DNA of 64,000 nucleotides from Sinomonas sp. R1AF57 (GTDB taxonomy: Bacteria; Actinomycetota; Actinomycetes; Actinomycetales; Micrococcaceae), in assembly GCF_002224485.1 (NCBI RefSeq), contig NZ_CP022463.1, positions 814,782 to 878,781 on the forward strand, written 5' to 3'. Positions 48,081-58,074 of this stretch are shown here, in pieces. The first letter of the stretch is position 1. Each line of letters opens with the position of its first letter. The notes under the pieces are model-generated. The model had not been told where the DNA came from and did no database searches. It saw only the letters and a program-made list of their open reading frames with translations. The position numbers were made by a program, and so were the translations under genes.

Positions 48081-49232
48081 TCAGGCGGCCGCGTTCGGCA
48101 CGACGAGCGGCTTGATGATGTTGTCCAGCTTGCTCGAGAAGATGTGGTAGCCCTCGGCGATGTGCTCGAGCGGGATGCGGTGGGTGACGATCTCGCTGGG
48201 CCTGAGGTAGCCGTTCCGGATGTGCTCGAACAGCCGCGGCCATTGCCTCTTCACCGGGCACTGGTTGGTGCGGATCGTCAGCCCCTTGTTCATCGCGTCG
48301 CCGAAGCGGATCGCGCTGAACATCGGGCCGTAGGCCCCGACCACCGAGACCGTGCCGCCCTTGCGGACGGAGTCTATGGCCCAGTTCAGCGCGATGGGGG
48401 AGCCGCCCTGGAGCTTGAGCTTGGACGCGAGGACGTGCTGGAAGAAGCTTCCGTCCGCCTCCGCGCCCGCCGCGTCGATCACCACGTCGGCCCCGAGGTA
48501 GTCGGTGTCCTTCTTGAGCTGGAGGACGATGTCGCCGTACTCGGTGAAGTTGTACGTCTCCGCGTGCGCGAAGTCGCGCGCCTTCTCGAGCCGGTAGTCG
48601 AGGTGGTCGATGACGATGACCCTGCCCGCGCCCATCAGCCACGACGACGCCGCCGCGAACAGCCCCACGGGCCCGGCCCCGAAGACCACGACGGTGTCGC
48701 CCTCCGCGATGTCCCCGAGCTGGGCGCCGAAGTAGCCGGTGGGGAGGGCATCGGTGAGCAGGACGGCGTCCTCGTCCGACATCCACTCGGGGATGCGGGA
48801 GGGCCCGACGTCGGCGAACGGCACGCGCACGAACTGCGACTGGCCGCCGTCGTACCCGCCGGCCGTGTGCGAGTAGCCGTAGGCCCCGCCGACCGCGGTC
48901 GCGTTCGGGTTGACGTTGTGGCAGTTCGAGTAGAGGCCCCGCGCGCAGAAGTAGCAGGATCCGCAGAAGACGTTGAAGGGGACCATGACCCGGTCGCCCT
49001 TCGAGAGGTTCTGGACGGACGGGCCGACCTTCTCGACGACGCCGACGAACTCGTGGCCGAACGTCATCCCGACCCGGGTGTCGGGGAGCATCCCGTGGTA
49101 GAGGTGTAGGTCTGAGCCGCAGATGGCGGCCAGGTCCACCCGGACGATCGCGTCGTTCGGGTGCTCGATGGCCGGGATGTCCTTCTCCTCGACCCGGATC
49201 TTGTACGGTCCGCGGTAGACCATGGCTCGCAT
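48081..49232 (-). CDS. Zinc-dependent alcohol dehydrogenase (MDR family)
   Basis: A 383-residue zinc dehydrogenase. AAICGSDLHLYHGM and FGHEFVGVVEKVG supply catalytic-zinc ligands, CGSCYFCARGLYSNC the structural-zinc cysteines, and VVVFGAGPVGLFAA the cofactor-binding turn. It resembles the glutathione-independent formaldehyde dehydrogenase branch (NQCPVKRQWPRL late segment) and may oxidise alcohols or formaldehyde-like aldehydes. A second ATG lies three codons inside. It is first in the leftward island between purN and purH. Confidence 0.87.
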   Translation of the reverse strand: MRAMVYRGPYKIRVEEKDIPAIEHPNDAIVRVDLAAICGSDLHLYHGMLPDTRVGMTFGHEFVGVVEKVGPSVQNLSKGDRVMVPFNVFCGSCYFCARGLYSNCHNVNPNATAVGGAYGYSHTAGGYDGGQSQFVRVPFADVGPSRIPEWMSDEDAVLLTDALPTGYFGAQLGDIAEGDTVVVFGAGPVGLFAAASSWLMGAGRVIVIDHLDYRLEKARDFAHAETYNFTEYGDIVLQLKKDTDYLGADVVIDAAGAEADGSFFQHVLASKLKLQGGSPIALNWAIDSVRKGGTVSVVGAYGPMFSAIRFGDAMNKGLTIRTNQCPVKRQWPRLFEHIRNGYLRPSEIVTHRIPLEHIAEGYHIFSSKLDNIIKPLVVPNAAA

Positions 49233-49346
49233 GTGGGGGCGCCTTCCTCGCGCGGTATCGTTCCGGTCACTGAGACATGCCCCTTTCGCCCCGGCGGGAA
49301 ACATGCTGGACCGGCGCAGGGGCGGGGCCGGCCCCCGGGCGGTCGA

Positions 49347-49352
49347 TAGAAT
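49347..49352 (+). promoter_or_regulatory. Possible -10 box of purH
   Basis: TAGAAT lies 44 bases before the purH start in the divergent gap. I see no convincing -35. A dedicated promoter is expected because purH has been separated from purN by genes on the other strand. Confidence 0.3.
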
Positions 49353-49396
49353 GGCCGGGACCCCTCCCCGCCCCGTTTCGAGAAAGACGAGTGCCT

Positions 49397-51064
<1,668 letters not shown>

Positions 51065-51097
51065 TTCCACGAAGCCGCGGCTTTCCGGCCGCGCACG

Positions 51098-51134
51098 ACG
51101 ACGGCGCGCTCCCTGGGCGGGGGCGCGCCGTCGT
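51098..51134. terminator. Hairpin between purH and the peptide gene
   Basis: ACGACGGCGCGC (51098-51109) pairs perfectly with GCGCGCCGTCGT (51123-51134). It lies between the convergent purH and the 66-residue peptide gene at 51147 and can terminate both. It belongs to the ACGACGGCG hairpin family. Confidence 0.65.
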
Positions 51135-51146
51135 GCGTTCACGCAG

Positions 51147-51347
51147 CTAGTTGTGCTGCCACGTGACGAGGTTCTGCCATGCGCCGGCATTGGCGGTGGA
51201 ATTGATCGTTGCCGCATTGATTGCGATAGCGAAGTTGATCCCGACGACCGGTGCGATGTTGATGTTGACCAGCGCGAGCGTGTCGCGTTCGGGCAGCAGG
51301 ACTGCCTCCTCTGCGGCGAGAACGCGCTGGGGGAGTTCCTGGGCCAT
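51147..51347 (-). CDS. Putative 66-residue peptide of the M50/SARP locus (P1)
   Basis: A 66-residue peptide that shares with the two other small peptides of the locus the segment LLPERDTLAL (compare LLPARHTLGL and MLPSRETLSW) and a hydrophobic, Asn-rich C-terminal half (VVGINFAIAINAATINSTAN). It has no signal peptide. AAGGAG lies 7 bases before the ATG. It is the most divergent of the three. A perfect 12-bp hairpin separates it from the peptide gene upstream. I do not recognise it as any named peptide family. Confidence 0.78.
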   Translation of the reverse strand: MAQELPQRVLAAEEAVLLPERDTLALVNINIAPVVGINFAIAINAATINSTANAGAWQNLVTWQHN

Positions 51348-51370
51348 GTCCCAACTCCTTGAGGATCTGT

Positions 51371-51402
51371 TGCCGGGTGCCCGAGGGGCCGGGCACCCGG
51401 CA
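51371..51402 (-). terminator. Hairpin between two peptide genes
   Basis: TGCCGGGTGCCC (51371-51382) pairs perfectly with 51391-51402, loop 8 bases. It is 15 bp after the stop of the middle peptide gene and ends 24 bp upstream of the next peptide start, so it could act as an attenuator or an mRNA-stabilising 3' end. Confidence 0.65.
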
Positions 51403-51416
51403 GCGTGTGGTCGGCG

Positions 51417-51617
51417 TCAGGACTGGCTGACCGTGACGGTCTGCGAGGCGGCGCTGAGCGCGGCCGCGAGAGCGGACGTGTCGTTGACCGCGGTCGACGA
51501 GTTGGCCGCGAGCACGAGGGCAAAGTTGTTGCCGAGGTGGAAGCTGGTGAGGCCCAGCGTGTGGCGCGCCGGAAGCAGCTCGATCGTTTCCGCGGTGACA
51601 TCGGTGATCTTCTCCAT
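51417..51617 (-). CDS. Putative 66-residue peptide of the M50/SARP locus (P2)
   Basis: A 66-residue peptide with a very strong ribosome-binding site (AAAGGAGGTGA) before its ATG at 51617. A charged N-terminal part ends in ETIELLPARHTLGL, then comes SFHLGNNFALVLAANSSTAV, close to the equivalent in the peptide at 53171 (SFHFGDNLAVVLASNSSTAG). The C-terminus is Ala/Ser/Thr/Gln-rich. It has no signal peptide and no Cys. The gene follows the M50 protease gene by 71 bp. A precursor peptide with a conserved leader-like segment is the best guess. Confidence 0.82.
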   Translation of the reverse strand: MEKITDVTAETIELLPARHTLGLTSFHLGNNFALVLAANSSTAVNDTSALAAALSAASQTVTVSQS

Positions 51618-51688
51618 GGTGTTCACCTCCTTTCGGATGCTCGGTGGTGCTGATGCAGGGTCTGGAGCCTGGAGGCCCAAGGGATGGG

Positions 51689-53068
51689 TCAGGCGCGGGC
51701 TGTTGGCGCCTGCCGGTGGCGGGGGTTGCGCCGTACGTGGCGGCCAGTCCATGCGCGGCGCTTCCGCTGGGAGGCAAGCCGGGCCGAGACCACACGGACG
51801 CCGTTCATGGCGAGCTGGGCCAGGATGATGCAGAGCCCCGCCACCGGCAGGACGAGCAGCACCAGCGCGATCGCCGCGAGGATGGCCTCGACGGGACGGC
51901 CGCTGGCGAAGAAGCCTGTGAAGCTGCTGACGTGCACCGCCGCCGCCTGGACTGTCTGGCCGATCACGACCGGCAGGGTGATGAAGAGCCAGGTGAGGAC
52001 GATGGTCAGGAAAGGGACGACCGTGAGGACCCAGACGGTCACGATCCAGCGCGAGTAGGGCTTGAGCTCACTGACGCGCGGGTCGGTCGGCCGGCCCGGG
52101 AGAAGGCTGGTCAGGACGGGCTTCACCCTGGCGAACAGGTCGGGGATACCGGCGAGGTCCGCGAGGACGAAGTAGCCGTCGAGCCTGACGAAGGGCGGGA
52201 GCTGCTGCAGCATCTGCAGCTGGGTCACGATGACCACCAGCAGGAGGAAGGGACTGCCGCTCGCGAGGAAGGCGCCGCCCGCAGCCAGAACCCACAGCAG
52301 GTTGAAATACAGTCCCCCGAGGTCCGTGCGGATCCGACCGGCCCGTCCTAGGCGGTAGGAGTCCGTGACGTTGGTGAAGAACGCTGGGAAGACCAGGTAG
52401 AGGCCTATGCCGATGACGCCGGGCCTTGCGCCTCCATAGCGGCAGGCTGCGGCGTGGCCGATCTCGTGGAACACGGTGCCCACGAAGATGAGGCCGTACA
52501 GGGCCAACAGGGCAGACGGCGTGACGAGCACTGCCCCCAGGGCCTGCAGGGCGTCGGCCCGGAAGGCGAGGTACACGTCGAGGCCGACGAACGCCAGCAC
52601 GGCGGCCACTACCACGGGTGGGACGAACAGGAACCGGAACACCCCGGCCAGGAACTGCACGCCCCGCGTGGGGATGAGCGTGCCCTTGAGGGTGAGGGCG
52701 AGGATCGGCTTGGCCGCCTCGAGGTGCTCGGGCGGCACTGCCCCGTCATCGGACAGCAGCCCGATGGGCTCGAGCCGCCCGGCGAGCGTGTTGAGCCCGT
52801 CGACGTCGAGCTCCTTGCCGAGACGCGCGGAGATGGCGGCCGCGAGCTCCTCCGGGGCCTGCGGCGCATCCGCGGCATCGATCACGCGGTAGAGCAGTTC
52901 GGTCAGCTGCACCACCTGGCCGTCCGACCGGCGGACGAGGAAGACGGGCTTCGTAAGCCCGGTTCCCGTTGCCTCCCCGAGAAGCTCGACGCCGGCGGAA
53001 CGCACCCAGTGGACGCCGCGGTCCGCGATGAGCCCGGAGGCTTCGGTCGCCGGTTCCTGGAGTGCCAT
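51689..53068 (-). CDS. Membrane M50-family metalloprotease with PqqD-like N-terminal domain
   Basis: A 459-residue protein. Residues about 40-105 (VFLVRRSDGQVVQLTELLYR onward) resemble the PqqD-like winged domain that binds peptide leaders. The protease core follows with several membrane helices: the zinc motif HEIGH at 201-205 in a helix, and the third ligand Asp297 in FVRLDGYFVL. More helices follow at about 342-375 and 394-420, and the tail is strongly basic. Such 'peptide zinc metalloprotease' proteins occur next to small peptides. The three flanking 66-residue peptides are its likely clients. Confidence 0.85.
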   Translation of the reverse strand: MALQEPATEASGLIADRGVHWVRSAGVELLGEATGTGLTKPVFLVRRSDGQVVQLTELLYRVIDAADAPQAPEELAAAISARLGKELDVDGLNTLAGRLEPIGLLSDDGAVPPEHLEAAKPILALTLKGTLIPTRGVQFLAGVFRFLFVPPVVVAAVLAFVGLDVYLAFRADALQALGAVLVTPSALLALYGLIFVGTVFHEIGHAAACRYGGARPGVIGIGLYLVFPAFFTNVTDSYRLGRAGRIRTDLGGLYFNLLWVLAAGGAFLASGSPFLLLVVIVTQLQMLQQLPPFVRLDGYFVLADLAGIPDLFARVKPVLTSLLPGRPTDPRVSELKPYSRWIVTVWVLTVVPFLTIVLTWLFITLPVVIGQTVQAAAVHVSSFTGFFASGRPVEAILAAIALVLLVLPVAGLCIILAQLAMNGVRVVSARLASQRKRRAWTGRHVRRNPRHRQAPTARA

Positions 53069-53124
53069 CGGTCCGTCCTGTCATCGCCGGAGAGCCGGAT
53101 GTGGGGGAGGGTGGGGCGGGTGAT

Positions 53125-53160
53125 GGGGGCCCAGAGGTGCTGGGGAAACCTCGGGCCCCC
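53125..53160 (-). terminator. Hairpin between the first peptide gene and the M50 gene
   Basis: GGGGGCCC (53125-53132) and GAGG (53134-53137) pair with CCTC (53149-53152) and GGGCCCCC (53153-53160), with one bulged base. It begins 11 bp after the peptide stop. It could let the peptide be made in excess over the protease. Confidence 0.65.
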
Positions 53161-53170
53161 ACGTTCCGTG

Positions 53171-53371
53171 CTACTTCTGGGTGACGTTGATGGTCTGGTT
53201 GGCCACGCTGTAGGCCAGGCCACCGATCGTGTACATGTTGCCCGCGGTCGAGGAGTTCGAGGCGAGAACGACGGCGAGGTTGTCACCGAAGTGGAAGCTG
53301 CTTCCCCACGAGAGGGTCTCGCGGCTCGGGAGCATCTCGATGGTCTCTTCGGCGATGGAGAGCTTGGTCAT
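53171..53371 (-). CDS. Putative 66-residue peptide of the M50/SARP locus (P3)
   Basis: A 66-residue peptide from the ATG at 53371, with AGGAG 8 bases upstream (a GTG 9 bases earlier is weaker). It has the shared ETIEMLPSRETLSW segment, then SSFHFGDNLAVVLASNSSTA and a C-terminal part with N-x-T motifs (NQTINVTQK). It differs from the peptide at 51417 by one small insertion across the conserved core. It is the first gene downstream of the SARP-type direct repeats, so it probably heads the peptide operon. Confidence 0.82.
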   Translation of the reverse strand: MTKLSIAEETIEMLPSRETLSWGSSFHFGDNLAVVLASNSSTAGNMYTIGGLAYSVANQTINVTQK

Positions 53372-53450
53372 TGCAATCACTCCTGATGCATTGGTGGTTA
53401 TTCAAGTCGATTGCTGATCCAATCGATGGCACCAGTCAAGCGGGTGGCCA

Positions 53451-53479
53451 GTTATCGCTCCGTTACCGGGGCGTTATTG
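53451..53479 (-). promoter_or_regulatory. SARP-type operator: three heptamers spaced exactly 11 bp
   Basis: On the plus strand GTTATCG, GTTACCG and GTTATTG start at 53451, 53462 and 53473, so the centres are 11 bp apart with 4-bp spacers. Read on the coding strand they are CAATAAC, CGGTAAC and CGATAAC. Direct heptamers at 11-bp spacing are the known binding layout of SARP/BTAD regulators, and one is encoded 1 kb upstream. They lie 80-108 bp before the first peptide gene; a TTGACT element follows them. Confidence 0.7.
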
Positions 53480-53524
53480 GCCTGATGGGGGAGGGCTCGG
53501 GCGGGTTGTCTGGCCACAGCACGG

Positions 53525-53565
53525 AGAGGCCTCCGCCGGCTGGTGTCCCAGCAGGCGGAGGCCTC
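53525..53565 (-). terminator. Terminator of the secreted CxxC-protein gene
   Basis: GAGGCCTCCGCC (53525-53536) pairs perfectly with GGCGGAGGCCTC (53554-53565). It lies 17 bp after the stop of the secreted protein and separates that gene from the peptide promoter. Confidence 0.72.
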
Positions 53566-53582
53566 GCGGCCTGCCCGGGCGC

Positions 53583-54311
53583 TCAGCCCTCCGTGTCCAG
53601 GTCCACCTTCGTTTGGACGGCTGCCCCCGTGTCCGCGGCGATGACGGCCCGTGCCCGCTCCGCGGCATCATTCGCGGCTGCGCGGGCGCGCGCCGACCGC
53701 TCAGTCTTGGGACGCCACGAGTCGTTCTTGAAGGTGTAGCTGAGCTCCTGTTCAATCCCCTGAACGATCGCCTTAGCTTGGTCGGAGAGATCCAGTGACT
53801 TGCCCCCCACGATGATGTACTGAAGCGCGGCGGTGGTGGCGGTGCACCCAGTGCAGCCCTCGTTGATTGACACGGCGCGGTTGTTGGCGATGATCACGTT
53901 TGACCCTGTGGCCGTGACGACCTGCACCGAGACCGCGGTCGACGACGCCCAGTTGCCCGTCGTGTAGGCCGTCGCGGTGTTGTTGGCCCAGATGTTGGCG
54001 GCCTGAGCGGAGGAGAGGACCTGAAGGGTGGTCGCCTGGGCCGAACAGCCGGAGCAGTTGGCCTGAGCGCTCGCGGTGGCCGACGCCGGCGAGTCGTCGG
54101 ACGATTTCAGCGGACCCCACACCGCGGCGGAGTCGACGGCGACCTTGTGGGCCGGGTTGGCGACCGCCCGTGAGGTCACGTTGAGATACTTCCCCCAAGC
54201 ATTGCCCTGGCCAGGGGCTGCGGACGCGGACGCCACGGGGACGGCGAGGAGCCCGGTGATGGTGAGCGCCGCGGCGGCGGCCGCTGACAGGAACTTCGAC
54301 TTCTTCTTCAC
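53583..54311 (-). CDS. Secreted protein with duplicated CxxC motif
   Basis: A 242-residue exported protein with a GTG start. The Sec signal has a Lys-rich start (KKKSKF), a hydrophobic core and an ASASA-AP cleavage site near residue 31. Two matching segments each hold a CxxC: NCSGCSAQATTLQVL (about 85-99) and GCTGCTATTAALQYI (about 152-166). The region between is rich in Asn, Thr and Ala. The C-terminus (200-242) is charged and helical. I recall similar paired-CxxC secreted proteins in other actinobacteria, but not their function. It lies 88 bp after the SARP gene and is probably transcribed with it. Confidence 0.8.
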   Translation of the reverse strand: MKKKSKFLSAAAAAALTITGLLAVPVASASAAPGQGNAWGKYLNVTSRAVANPAHKVAVDSAAVWGPLKSSDDSPASATASAQANCSGCSAQATTLQVLSSAQAANIWANNTATAYTTGNWASSTAVSVQVVTATGSNVIIANNRAVSINEGCTGCTATTAALQYIIVGGKSLDLSDQAKAIVQGIEQELSYTFKNDSWRPKTERSARARAAANDAAERARAVIAADTGAAVQTKVDLDTEG

Positions 54312-54399
54312 GGATCCTCGTTTCTCGTGCAGGGCAGGGCGGACCGACCCGGCGCCAGAGCGTCGGGAGGCAGGGGAGGTGAGGCAGCGCCGTCGCGCG

Positions 54400-55206
54400 C
54401 TAGGCGGGGCGCATGGCAATCGGTGAGAGGCGGGGGCGGGGACGCGGGTCGGGACGGGCTGCCCGCGAACGGCCGGGTTCGGCCGGGTCTGCTGTGGTGA
54501 TCTTCCGGACGGTCGCCATCGCGACCGGTCCGAGCAGGCTCCTGAGGCCGTCGGAGGGTTCGACGCCGAGCTCCTCCCAGAGGCGGGCCTCGAAGTCGAT
54601 GAAGGTGCGCCGGGCCCCGGCCGCGTTGCCGGCCCGGAGCTGGACCTCGATGAGCAGGCGCTGCGCGGATTCGCGCAAGGGCTCGATGGCGGCGGCCGAC
54701 CGGGCGGCGTCGAGCGCGCGTTCGGTGTCCTCGTCCAGCAGGTGCCGACGGGAGAGGGACTCCAGGACCAGGACCCGCTGCTCACGCAGCCGCTCCTGCT
54801 CGAAGAGGACCCAGTCGTCGTACCAGCCCGGCAGGAGCTCGGCGGAGCGGAGCACGTCGGTGAAGTCCGCCGGGACGTCGGCTGGCCCTGCCGCACCGGC
54901 CCCTGCCAGGTGCGAGCGGAACTCGTGCAGGTCCACCGTGACCGATCCGCTGAGGCCCACCGGTTCGGTCCTGTCGTCGAGCAGGCCCGGCAGCTGGTGG
55001 CTGATCTTGAAAAGGGCCGCCCTGAGGTTGCCGCTGGCCTGCGCCTCAGAGCTGTCGGGCCAGAGCAGGCCGGAGAGGAACTGCCGTGGGCGTTCGCCCA
55101 GCAGAGCGAGGGCCGCGATCAGCCGCTGCTGCCGGAGCCCCACCTGAACGGTCTCTCCATCGCGTTTGAGTTGCCAGCATCCGAGTAAACGGACTCGCCA
55201 TACCAC
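54400..55206 (-). CDS. BTAD/SARP-family transcriptional regulator
   Basis: A 268-residue regulator with an N-terminal winged-helix DNA-binding domain (RVRLLGCWQLKRDGETVQVG, QQRLIAALALLGERPRQFLS) and a C-terminal bacterial transcriptional activation domain of TPR-like helices (VLVLESLSRRHLLDEDTERA, AGNAAGARRTFIDFEARLWE). This is the short SARP layout without ATPase. It is likely to activate the peptide operon through the 11-bp-spaced heptamers at 53451-53479. The C-terminal 30 residues are Pro/Arg-rich. Confidence 0.9.
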   Translation of the reverse strand: MVWRVRLLGCWQLKRDGETVQVGLRQQRLIAALALLGERPRQFLSGLLWPDSSEAQASGNLRAALFKISHQLPGLLDDRTEPVGLSGSVTVDLHEFRSHLAGAGAAGPADVPADFTDVLRSAELLPGWYDDWVLFEQERLREQRVLVLESLSRRHLLDEDTERALDAARSAAAIEPLRESAQRLLIEVQLRAGNAAGARRTFIDFEARLWEELGVEPSDGLRSLLGPVAMATVRKITTADPAEPGRSRAARPDPRPRPRLSPIAMRPA

Positions 55207-55407: not shown

Positions 55408-55680
55408 TCAGGCGCCAGCGGCGCGGCGCGCATCGGAAGAATCCTCCCCCGCCTGCTCCTTCAGCCAGGCCTCGACCGCGTGGAGGACCGAGTCGGGACT
55501 GTCCGTGACGAGGACGCTCGCAGGCGCCTCCGCGCCCGAGGCGCTCAGCAGCCGCACTCGCAGCCGCCCGTCCGGCTCCCGCCATGAGCGGAGCACGAGT
55601 GTGCCGGACCCGGCCGAGTCCTCCGGGTCCTCGTGGATCTCCCTGTGGCTGCCTGAAGGCATCGACGCCTCGGATGTCAT
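55408..55680 (-). CDS. Small hypothetical protein
   Basis: A 90-residue acidic protein with Ser/Glu-rich ends and a compact middle (TLVLRSWREPDGRLRVRLLS, SVLVTDSPDSVLHAVEAWLK). I do not recognise a named family. The GGGGG ribosome-binding-site candidate lies inside a small hairpin (55688-55693 with 55705-55710). It precedes the SARP gene on the same strand by 200 bp and is divergent from icd. Whether it belongs to the peptide locus is unclear. Confidence 0.6.
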   Translation of the reverse strand: MTSEASMPSGSHREIHEDPEDSAGSGTLVLRSWREPDGRLRVRLLSASGAEAPASVLVTDSPDSVLHAVEAWLKEQAGEDSSDARRAAGA

Positions 55681-55851: not shown

Positions 55852-58074
55852 ATGGCCACCATCATCTACACGCATACCGACGAAGCGCCGATGCTCGCGA
55901 CCCACTCGTTCCTGCCCATCGTGCAGGCATTCGCCTCGACGGCTGGGATCGACATCGAGACCCGCGACATCTCCCTTGCGGGGCGCATCATCGCAGCGTT
56001 CGGTGATTACCTGACGGAGGAGCAGCGCACGTCGGACGCGCTTGCGGAACTGGGTGCCCTGGCGAAGACGCCGGAGGCGAACATCATCAAGCTCCCGAAC
56101 ATCAGCGCCTCCGTCCCGCAGCTCAAGGCCGCCGTCGCCGAGCTCCAGTCGCAGGGCTATGCCCTCCCGGACTACCCGGACAACCCCTCCTCGGACGAGG
56201 AGACGGACATCCGTTCGCGCTACGACAGGATCAAGGGTTCCGCGGTGAACCCCGTGCTCCGCGAGGGCAATTCGGACCGCCGTGCCCCCCTCTCCGTCAA
56301 GAACTATGCGCGCAAGAACCCGCACTCCATGGGTGCCTGGACCGCCGATTCGAAGACCAACGTCGCCACGATGGGCGAGAGCGACTTCCGTGCCAACGAG
56401 AAGTCCATCGTGCTGCCTGCCGACGACTCGCTGACCATCCAGCTCGTGCTCGAGGACGGCACCGTCAAGGAGCTCAAGAAGGGCATCAAGGTCCTCGCGG
56501 GCGAGGTCGTCGACGGCACGTTCATGGACTCCGCCGCCCTTGACAACTTCCTCGCGGCCCAGGTCAGCCGGGCCAAGGAGGAGGGCGTCCTGTTCTCGGC
56601 GCACCTCAAGGCCACCATGATGAAGGTCTCGGACCCGATCATCTTCGGCCACGTCGTCAAGGCGTACTTCGCCGAGCTCTTCGACACCTACGGCAAGCAG
56701 CTCGCCGCCGCCGGCCTGAGCCCCAACAACGGCCTGGCCTCGATCCTCAACGGCCTCGACGACCTCCCTGAGGACGTCCGCGAGGGCGTCAAGGACGCGA
56801 TCCAGAAGTGCCTCTCGGACGGACCGGCCCTCGCGATGGTCGACTCGGACAAGGGCATCACCAACCTCCACGTGCCCTCCGACGTCATCGTGGACGCCTC
56901 CATGCCGGCCATGATCCGAATCGGCGGCCACATGTGGGGCCCGGACGGCAAGGAGCACGACACGCTCGCCGTCCTGCCGGACTCCTCGTACGCGGGCGTC
57001 TACCAGACCGTGATCGACGACTGCCGCGAGCACGGCGCCCTCGATCCCACCACCATGGGCACCGTGCCGAACGTGGGCCTCATGGCCCAGGCGGCCGAAG
57101 AGTACGGCAGCCACGACAAGACTTTCGAGATCCCTGCCGCCGGAACGGTCCAGCTGGTCAACGCCGCCGGCGACGTCCTCCTCGAGCACGCGGTCAAGGC
57201 GGGCGACATCTGGCGCGCATGCCAGACCAAGGACGTGCCGATCCGCGACTGGGTCAAGCTCGCCGTGAACCGCGCCCGCGCCACCGGCTCCCCGGCCGTC
57301 TTCTGGCTCGACGAGGAGCGCGCCCACGACCGCAACCTCATCGCCAAGGTGCGCGAGTACCTCGGCGAGCACGACACCGAGGGCCTCACGATCGAGATCC
57401 TCGCGCCTGCCGAGGCCACCGCCTACACGCTCGACCGCCTCCGCAAGGGGGAGGACACTATCTCCGTGACCGGCAACGTGCTCCGCGACTACCTCACGGA
57501 CCTCTTCCCGATCCTCGAGCTGGGCACGAGCGCCAAGATGCTCTCGATCGTCCCGCTCATCGCAGGCGGCGGCCTCTTCGAGACGGGTGCCGGCGGCTCC
57601 GCCCCGAAGCACGTCCAGCAGCTCGTCAAGGAGGACTACCTCCGCTGGGACAGCCTCGGCGAGTTCTTCGCCCTCGTGCCGTCCTTCGAGCTCTACGCCG
57701 AGCAGGCCGGCGTGCCCGCGGCGAAGGTCCTCGCGGACACCCTCGACCGTGCCACGGGCACGTTCCTCGAGGAGAACAAGTCGCCGGGCCGCAAGCTCGG
57801 CACCATCGACAACCGCGGCTCGCACTACTTCCTCGCCCAGTACTGGGCGAGGGAGCTCGCCCAGCAGACGGACGACGCCGACCTCGCCGCCGCGTTCGCG
57901 CCCGTCGCCGAGGCCCTGACGTCGAATGAGGAGGCCATCGTCTCCGAGCTCCTGGCAGTCCAGGGCTCGTCGGTCGACCTCGGCGGCTACTACCACCCGG
58001 ATGAGGCCAAGGTCTCCTCGGTCATGCGTCCCTCGGCAACCCTTAACGGGGTCGTGGACGGCCTCCGCAAGTAG
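55852..58074 (+). CDS. icd: NADP-dependent isocitrate dehydrogenase, monomeric type
   Basis: A 740-residue enzyme of the citrate cycle, converting isocitrate to 2-oxoglutarate with NADP+. Its length and segments ([76 protein letters not shown]) identify the monomeric IDH found in Corynebacterium and relatives rather than the dimeric form. A TAGATT -10-like box lies about 60 bp upstream. Two stem-loops follow the stop. Confidence 0.96.

Follow-up and report, generated by a model that had tools for sequence, protein, structure and literature searches.

Membrane proteases of the site-2 type take part in the maturation of several kinds of short bacterial peptides. In daptides (precursors MpaA, protease MpaP), as the available part of PMC10036551 describes them, a recognition element for ribosomally synthesized and post-translationally modified peptides (RRE; the peptides themselves, RiPPs) is fused N-terminally to an intramembrane site-2 protease, and each cluster holds several short precursors with a conserved leader motif. 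In epipeptides (EpeX/EpeP, YydH/LiaK), an M50 protease lies beside its own peptide. In TMcins (TmcA/TmcP), according to the accessible text of PMC13252029, the leader is removed by a membrane protease of the site-2 clan. Comparable features are seen or predicted in a six-gene block at positions 51147–55206 of a 64,000-nucleotide stretch of the Sinomonas sp. R1AF57 genome (the window). The block lies between purH and icd, all on the minus strand, and its genes are transcribed in the order Streptomyces antibiotic regulatory protein (SARP), CxxC protein, peptide 1, M50 protease, peptide 2 and peptide 3. An earlier note, made from this DNA alone, had described within these bounds a SARP gene and a gene for a secreted protein with paired CxxC, together with an M50 protease and three peptides of 66 residues each, and the present analysis found the same genes there. 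The reading favored here, with a probability of about 0.5, is that unmodified peptide cores, released by the protease, assemble outside the cell as a beta-structured, functional-amyloid-like fiber or coat.

Comparison with described systems

The block resembles the daptides in architecture, but membership was rejected. Daptide clusters encode an oxidative decarboxylase, an aminotransferase and a methyltransferase, none of which was found in the block or in the ten neighboring genes scanned with Pfam. The daptide leader motif is ELExMEAP, whereas the window leader reads ELLPxRETL, and all 36 aligned peptides end in a residue other than the threonine that is invariant at the daptide C-terminus. 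The window protease gave below-cut-off matches to the NCBIfam metalloprotease models of both daptides and epipeptides. It scored 116.1 bits (E 2e-33) on the daptide model NF041824 (daptide_HExxH), where the cut-off is 300, and weakly, 44.5 bits against a cut-off of 225, on the epipeptide model NF058609. Membership in the epipeptides was likewise rejected, because they have a radical SAM gene beside the precursor and none was found in the block or the ten neighbors; the peptides differ as well. TMcins differ from the window system in that TmcP is a DUF3267 protein, in the description of which the available part of PMC13252029 makes no mention of 'RRE', and in that the product, once mature, spans the membrane as a helix and has a disulfide of its own. 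In the broad sense of an RRE-dependent RiPP system, the block has leader-bearing precursors beside an RRE protein, which would bind them. As in other site-2 (M50) proteases, HExxH and a distal DG motif lie in the predicted membrane core.

Chaplins have signal peptides, and the repeats of the curli and Fap amyloids, of the form strand-turn-strand, carry Asn/Gln ladders. Among the scanned neighbors there was no curli or Fap gene, and the window has single-unit peptides and an RRE protease, unlike those systems. The chaplins of Streptomyces, which are actinobacterial like the window system, form an amyloid layer at the cell surface from small proteins of one domain and larger ones that have two domains and are anchored to the wall, and Fap proteins have a C-terminal CxxC (both as given in the available part of PMC5618241). 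Chaplins belong to Pfam PF03777; the window peptides instead have a leader and an RRE protease, and none of the three matched a chaplin, curlin or other curated amyloid model, or any other Pfam family, up to E 10. When the seven local proteins were searched against Pfam and NCBIfam up to E 10, the single match above a curated cut-off was the BTAD domain of the SARP. No family in either collection matched the peptides or the CxxC protein, in agreement with the remark in the earlier note that no named class fits. Among the open-license papers listed by literature searches, no title or beginning of an abstract names these peptides, the protease group or the CxxC protein.

Co-occurrence of the peptides and the protease

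The peptides track the M50 protein in samples of both the class and the family, as would be expected from the earlier note, which had tied the two together and had named a wide spread of peptides without the protease as evidence to the contrary. Such a spread was not found; only a few solitary matches were seen. The class sample comprised 394 genomes. A hidden Markov model (HMM) of the peptides, built on alignment A2 (36 of the 38 peptides from a motif search that missed some copies, for example of type B), matched in 36 genomes. The protease matched in 86 genomes at E 0.001; 58 of these were strong, at E 5e-60 or better, and the 28 between the two thresholds were not counted. All of the 36 peptide-bearing genomes fell within the 58 strong-protease genomes (hypergeometric P 4e-36, a value that ignores relatedness among genomes). 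At the level of single matches, 67 of 73 lay at most 3 kb from a strong protease, and all 67 were on its strand. In 19 of the 22 strong-protease genomes without a short-peptide match, a longer protein with two copies of the repeat and an LPxKE-type leader motif lies beside the protease, and in 18 of the 22 a CxxC domain is in the protease's own frame. Because 36 genomes have the short peptide and 19 the two-repeat protein, 55 of the 58 have some putative substrate; none was seen in the other three (G303, where the protease is at a contig end, G348 and G547).

In the family, 197 genomes were used for the protease search and 194 for the peptide HMM. The protease matched in 30 of the 197, and its close form (at least 50% identity) was present in 13 genomes, the window genome included. 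These are 13 of the 14 genomes in which the peptide HMM matched; the fourteenth (G183) has a marginal peptide match (E 0.0026) and no protease match. Forty-four of 47 peptide-HMM matches had a close-form protease at a distance of no more than 4 kb, encoded on the same strand for 42 matches and on the opposite one for two, in G143; the 44 include the CxxC gene of G104. Besides the window, 13 close-form loci were fetched, from 12 genomes (G135 twice). Peptide homologues adjoin the protease at all 13, and the peptide gene set is therefore more than chance. Chance open reading frames (ORFs) as an explanation of the peptides were rejected on homology, ribosome-binding sites and synteny; a stretch like a ribosome-binding site precedes the ATG of each of the three window peptides. 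Type A is represented by at least one peptide at each of the 13 loci, and type B by one, which shares 57% identity or more with peptide 3. A SARP homologue was found at 12 of these loci and a CxxC protein homologue at 11; the locus without both (L038) begins at a contig end beside the peptide.

When 84,980 species, each represented by one genome, were scanned with the protease alignment, 323 relatives were confirmed, which were found via two short protein patterns. The best 80 were kept, and these named loci are neither a complete nor a random set. Apart from five Chloroflexi genomes they belong to Actinomycetota; they come from Sinomonas, Arthrobacter, Pseudarthrobacter, Nocardioides, Intrasporangium, Georgenia, Frankia, Mycobacterium and others, and include metagenome-assembled genomes (MAGs) that their record names label Acidimicrobiia, Thermoleophilaceae and Chloroflexi (five). 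Peptides adjoin the protease at 74 of the 80 loci, with at least two peptides at 70. Among the six others, the two-repeat protein was found at four; of the remaining two, L105 is close to the start of a contig, and at L114 neither was seen. A SARP-like group was found near 52 of the 80; the underlying clustering of neighbor ORFs was full of wrong-frame shadows and genus-level flanks (purH, phosphoenolpyruvate carboxylase, by eye) and was used for this group only. The block belongs to a large family and is not a local oddity of one genome.

Fold and forms of the M50 protease

The protease was modeled with AlphaFold2 from an 83-sequence alignment, with a predicted local distance difference test (pLDDT) score of 88.6. 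The model has strands within residues 21–55, three helices up to residue 99 and then a membrane core. Foldseek matched it to TbiB1, a lasso-peptide RRE, together with the leader (probability 1.00), to MibB (0.96) and PqqD (0.95), and to SpoIVFB with pro-sigmaK (probability 0.94, E 0.14, poor superposition), all E-values for this model being 0.08 or worse. Judged by target length and secondary structure, the RRE matches would fall on the N-terminus. Searches of solved structures with alignments A2, A4 (78 of the 80 loci, more than 380 aligned residues) and A5 gave nothing convincing; the site-2 protease MJ0392 was matched at E 0.83. The term 'PqqD-like' in the earlier note stands at the level of the predicted fold, but not as family membership, since Pfam PqqD has no match in this genome. 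Its assignment as an M50 membrane protease was upheld by the intact HExxH and DG motifs and the predicted site-2-like fold. Consistently, H201, E202, H205, D297 and G298 are invariant in the 83 sequences.

Three forms of the protease exist among the 80 named loci. It is alone in 38, fused to a CxxC domain in 5, and fused C-terminally to a MinD/ParA-like ATPase in 37, as judged by a loose Walker motif in the tail. Pfam was run on three M50-MinD proteins, and gave CbiA for L066 (37.7 bits, cut-off 25.4), AAA_31 for L059 (31.1 bits, cut-off 27) and a score below cut-off for L064. In the second form, the M50-CxxC fusion follows a two-repeat protein with an LPDKEV-type leader, which has 221–246 residues in four called ORFs; the fusion was read in L044–L047. 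Nocardioides MAGs, Mycobacterium/Mycolicibacterium species and genomes of the window's family carry loci of this form (L044–L047, L014–L024, L121, L126, L128, L130 and L165–L186), and the two-repeat protein is present at all 11 of L014–L024. The three forms point to one pathway. Peptides, SARP and M50-MinD were found together at L064, L071, L072, L074 and L120, with no CxxC protein seen within 6 kb.

Leader and core of the peptides

The motif E-x4-LP-x-R-x-TL, which the earlier note had reported, is present in all three window peptides, and SFH-x-G-x-N-x-A-x-V-L-A-x-NSSTA in two of them. The first motif falls in a conserved, leader-like segment with the consensus E-L-x2-[EQ]-x2-E-L-L-P-x-R-E-T-L, in which L14, P15 and R17 are conserved at 97–100% over 204 sequences (183 unique). 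The unique sequences consist of A2 and of A2-HMM matches at E below 1e-6, and are hence not independent of A2. The SFH...NSSTA segment is indeed common to two peptides, but is part of the core and not of the leader as had been proposed. The idea that the Asn/Ala/Ser-rich half is the likely product was supported. The uniform length of 66 residues is peculiar to this genome, relatives found by the motif having 61–71.

Within the core, conserved positions alternate strictly. Over the 204 sequences, the conserved columns are N31, A33, V/I35, A/G37, N39, A/S41, A43 and N45 in the first predicted strand, and S51, A53, A/S55, A57, Q59, I/L61, V63 and Q65 in the second; every one of these odd columns carries more information than both of its even neighbors. 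N39, N45 and Q59 are conserved at 98–100% across lineages. At the sequence level, such alternation is the signature of two putative beta strands with one constant face and an arc of five residues between them.

A repeat shared by the CxxC protein and the peptides

The CxxC protein begins with a Sec-type signal peptide (about residues 1–31, judged by eye). The paired CxxC of the earlier note is present as C86-C89 and C153-C156. The two pairs are 67 residues, or two repeats, apart in the window protein, and many relatives have a third pair between them. The repeat has a period of 33–34 residues, and N, Q and C recur at corresponding positions in it, which suggests a putative parallel solenoid, a flat meander being the alternative.

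In hhalign, the peptide core aligned without gaps to the last CxxC unit, at E 7.1e-5 with alignment A3 and 1.9e-4 with A5. The latter holds 47 proteins, namely 12 proteins and 35 of 43 HMM matches over 90 residues; the eight matches left out are named copies of loci already included. When 127 CxxC-centered units from the 47 A5 proteins were compared with the peptide profile, the in-register score was 12.7, while 16 other offsets scored -4.8 or lower. None of 20,000 column shuffles reached 12.7 (the best shuffle was 11.1). T48 and S51 of the peptide consensus coincide with the two Cys of CxxC, and the CxxC gene of G104 was matched in frame by the peptide HMM itself (E 0.0022). On the evidence of these alignments, the CxxC protein appears to carry the peptides' repeat, not merely to adjoin them.

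The AlphaFold2 model of the CxxC protein (pLDDT 88.2, predicted template modeling score 0.82) has eight strands within residues 43–168, followed by two helices and a last strand. The modeled strands 139–150 and 157–168 are where the alignment places the strands of the peptide. The two predicted helices and the last strand could cap one end.

Proposed mechanism and its alternatives

Gene content, homologues, co-occurrence, active-site residues and predicted folds were obtained directly; from them we infer that the protease binds and cuts the leader, that export takes place through it or next to it, that cores stack on a template, and that the product serves at the surface. The SARP activator would switch on the small precursor peptides, and their leaders would dock on the RRE domain of the membrane site-2 protease. 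The protease would cut after the leader, in or near the membrane, and the core would leave the cell, perhaps via the protease itself, as EpeP is thought to cleave and export the epipeptide (available part of PMC10885120). Cores would stay chemically unmodified by enzymes of the module, each forming one strand-arc-strand unit with an Asn/Ala/Gln ladder face, and type A and type B cores would stack outside the cell into the fiber or coat. The CxxC protein would leave the cell by means of its signal peptide and offer several matching units and a helical C-terminal part as a capped end; where present, it may act as template, anchor or end-cap, with CxxC sitting in the arc where the peptides have T-x-x-S.

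A wider reading is put forward tentatively, as possible but rather doubtful. These would be widespread functional-amyloid systems, mainly of Actinomycetota, in which leader recognition of the RiPP type meters out self-assembling subunits, each a single rung of a beta-solenoid. The RRE-site-2 protease would cut and release them, the homologous, multi-rung and capped CxxC protein would template one-way growth, and the MinD/ParA-like fusion (37 of 80 loci by motif) would place the assembly site. A block that encodes leader-bearing peptides, a membrane protease of an antibiotic-trimming type and a secreted protein seemingly built on the peptides' repeat hints at a hitherto undescribed but widespread route to an extracellular fiber or coat. 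If true, RRE/site-2-protease maturation, known from peptide antibiotics, would be joined with self-assembling surface proteins, and many soil actinobacteria would have a surface-fiber or coat system that current annotation misses.

Several observations weigh against the favored reading. Six of the 73 peptide matches in the class sample are not adjacent to the protease (three in G205, on another contig, C87; G539:C178; G295:C1:5247661; G327:C1:2812709), and in the family sample strong full-length matches stand alone at G175:C23:297738 (E 4e-29) and G135:C34:35477 (E 2e-28). The hhalign probabilities for the shared repeat are only 63% (A3) and 48% (A5). Foldseek gave no significant match to the CxxC model (best E 0.22); many of the weak matches are presumably beta-solenoids, including FapC (E 0.58, probability 0.01) and ice-binding proteins. 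No CxxC protein was seen within 6 kb at 24 of the 80 named loci, of which ten, in Arthrobacter/Pseudarthrobacter, have the MinD fusion and some others are on short contigs; templating by the CxxC protein can thus be no more than one variant. Strand 1 has a strongly hydrophobic face (mean hydropathy 2.1), which suits a membrane-active peptide as well as a coat. No exporter was identified for the module, and 30 neighbor genes at six loci of different lineages have no export family in common. According to the available text of PMC10885120, the native epipeptide producer still makes the EpeX product without epeP, and SARP regulators are often encoded in antibiotic clusters (available part of PMC8062868).

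The last point, together with the hydrophobic face, also fits a two-peptide antimicrobial, bacteriocin-like or daptide-like, in which unmodified amphipathic A and B peptides, set free by the RRE protease, would act on the membranes of competitors. The two peptide types at all 13 close loci agree with it, as do the RRE-site-2 proteases that mature daptides (available part of PMC10036551) and the finding that the M50 protease EpeP suffices for epipeptide production (available part of PMC10885120). We nevertheless consider it unlikely, since the same 30 genes contain no common exporter or immunity family and the peptides align with a secreted multi-repeat protein. The cores, moreover, are highly conserved across lineages at the Asn and Gln positions given above, which is unusual for antimicrobials. 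A modified RiPP with tailoring enzymes encoded elsewhere in the genome seems improbable. RRE domains often serve modifying enzymes (available part of PMC10036551), and the arc offers Thr, Ser and Cys as possible sites, but no tailoring gene was found in the block or its ten neighbors, to which that scan was limited, and no common tailoring family among the 30 neighbor genes at the six loci. Single loci do have such genes, for example a methyltransferase at L121.

Site-2 proteases release peptide signals in other systems, and here a regulator adjoins the peptides, so that regulated intramembrane proteolysis might free a pheromone acting back on the SARP. The rigid strand pattern of the cores, their length of about 40 residues, the presence of several divergent paralogues in a genome, and many loci of Chloroflexi or Acidimicrobiia type without a SARP among the matches listed (several on short contigs) make this very improbable. 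The CxxC protein might also be a redox or metal-binding partner, with the peptides as its chaperones or inhibitors and not as structural subunits. The CxxC pairs in arcs at equivalent places of the repeat would agree with such a role, but peptides are present at loci where no CxxC protein was seen, and we give this explanation hardly any credence.

Genomic setting of the block

The purH-icd spacing is 4.8 kb in the window and about 0.6–0.8 kb in four Sinomonas genomes without the close-form block, two of which have the second protease form at another site. Because purH and icd are so close together in the block-free genomes, the block of about 4.1 kb was gained or lost as a whole, and the bounds drawn in the earlier note agree with the extent of this unit. 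The 90-residue gene beside the SARP gene stays between purH and icd in all four block-free genomes, and was for this reason set aside as a cassette member. Of the 13 close loci that were fetched, 10 have its homologue near the SARP, in some cases at sites other than purH-icd; its product has no Pfam or NCBIfam family.

The ten neighboring genes scanned with Pfam, seven below the block and three above, encode a formyltransferase, Polyketide_cyc, a major facilitator superfamily (MFS) protein, two DoxX proteins, a zinc alcohol dehydrogenase (ADH), PurH and IDH, while two have no Pfam family. No radical SAM or lanthionine gene was found by Pfam in the block or these ten genes, which were the only ones covered by the scan.

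Table 1. Features of the block and its surroundings, with positions in the window
Feature	Position	Strand	Basis
icd	55852–58074		Pfam IDH
Small 90-residue protein, neighbor, probably outside the block that comes and goes	55408–55680	-	
SARP/AfsR-type transcriptional activator, 268 residues	54400–55206	-	Pfam BTAD 50.8 bits, cut-off 22.1
Secreted paired-CxxC repeat protein, 242 residues, GTG start	53583–54311	-	Close-locus homologues, AlphaFold2, repeat alignment
Hairpin 3' of CxxC gene, very stable	~53526–53565	-	RNA fold z -3.97 for 53470–53582
Peptide 1, type A (NSSTA type), 66 residues	53171–53371	-	ORF calls, motif, alignment A2
GC-rich hairpin 3' of peptide 1	~53123–53162	-	RNA fold z -2.13, 6/200 shuffles as good, for 53072–53170
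RRE-like domain (~residues 20–107) fused to site-2-type M50 metalloprotease, 459 residues	51689–53068	-	
Peptide 2, type A, 66 residues	51417–51617	-	ORF calls, motif, alignment A2
GC-rich hairpin between peptides 2 and 3	~51371–51402	-	RNA fold z -3.61, 0/200 shuffles as good
Peptide 3, type B (INIAPVVGINFAIAINAAT type), 66 residues	51147–51347	-	Type-B copies at close loci
Strong hairpin separating the convergent genes purH and peptide 3	~51089–51146	.	RNA fold z -3.34, 0/200 shuffles as good
purH	49277–51064	convergent with peptide 3	
Zinc ADH	48081–49304		PF08240/PF00107, not PF00465

Predicted RNA hairpins with z below -2 follow 26 of 38 peptide genes, and for peptide 1 the first 75 nucleotides beyond the stop codon have z -3.7. 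Such hairpins are common in GC-rich genomes; those after the peptide genes fit strong, separate expression. Sinomonas susongensis carries the block a second time (L036, and L058), at a site other than purH-icd, and here the CxxC gene and the first peptide are about 1.7 kb apart.

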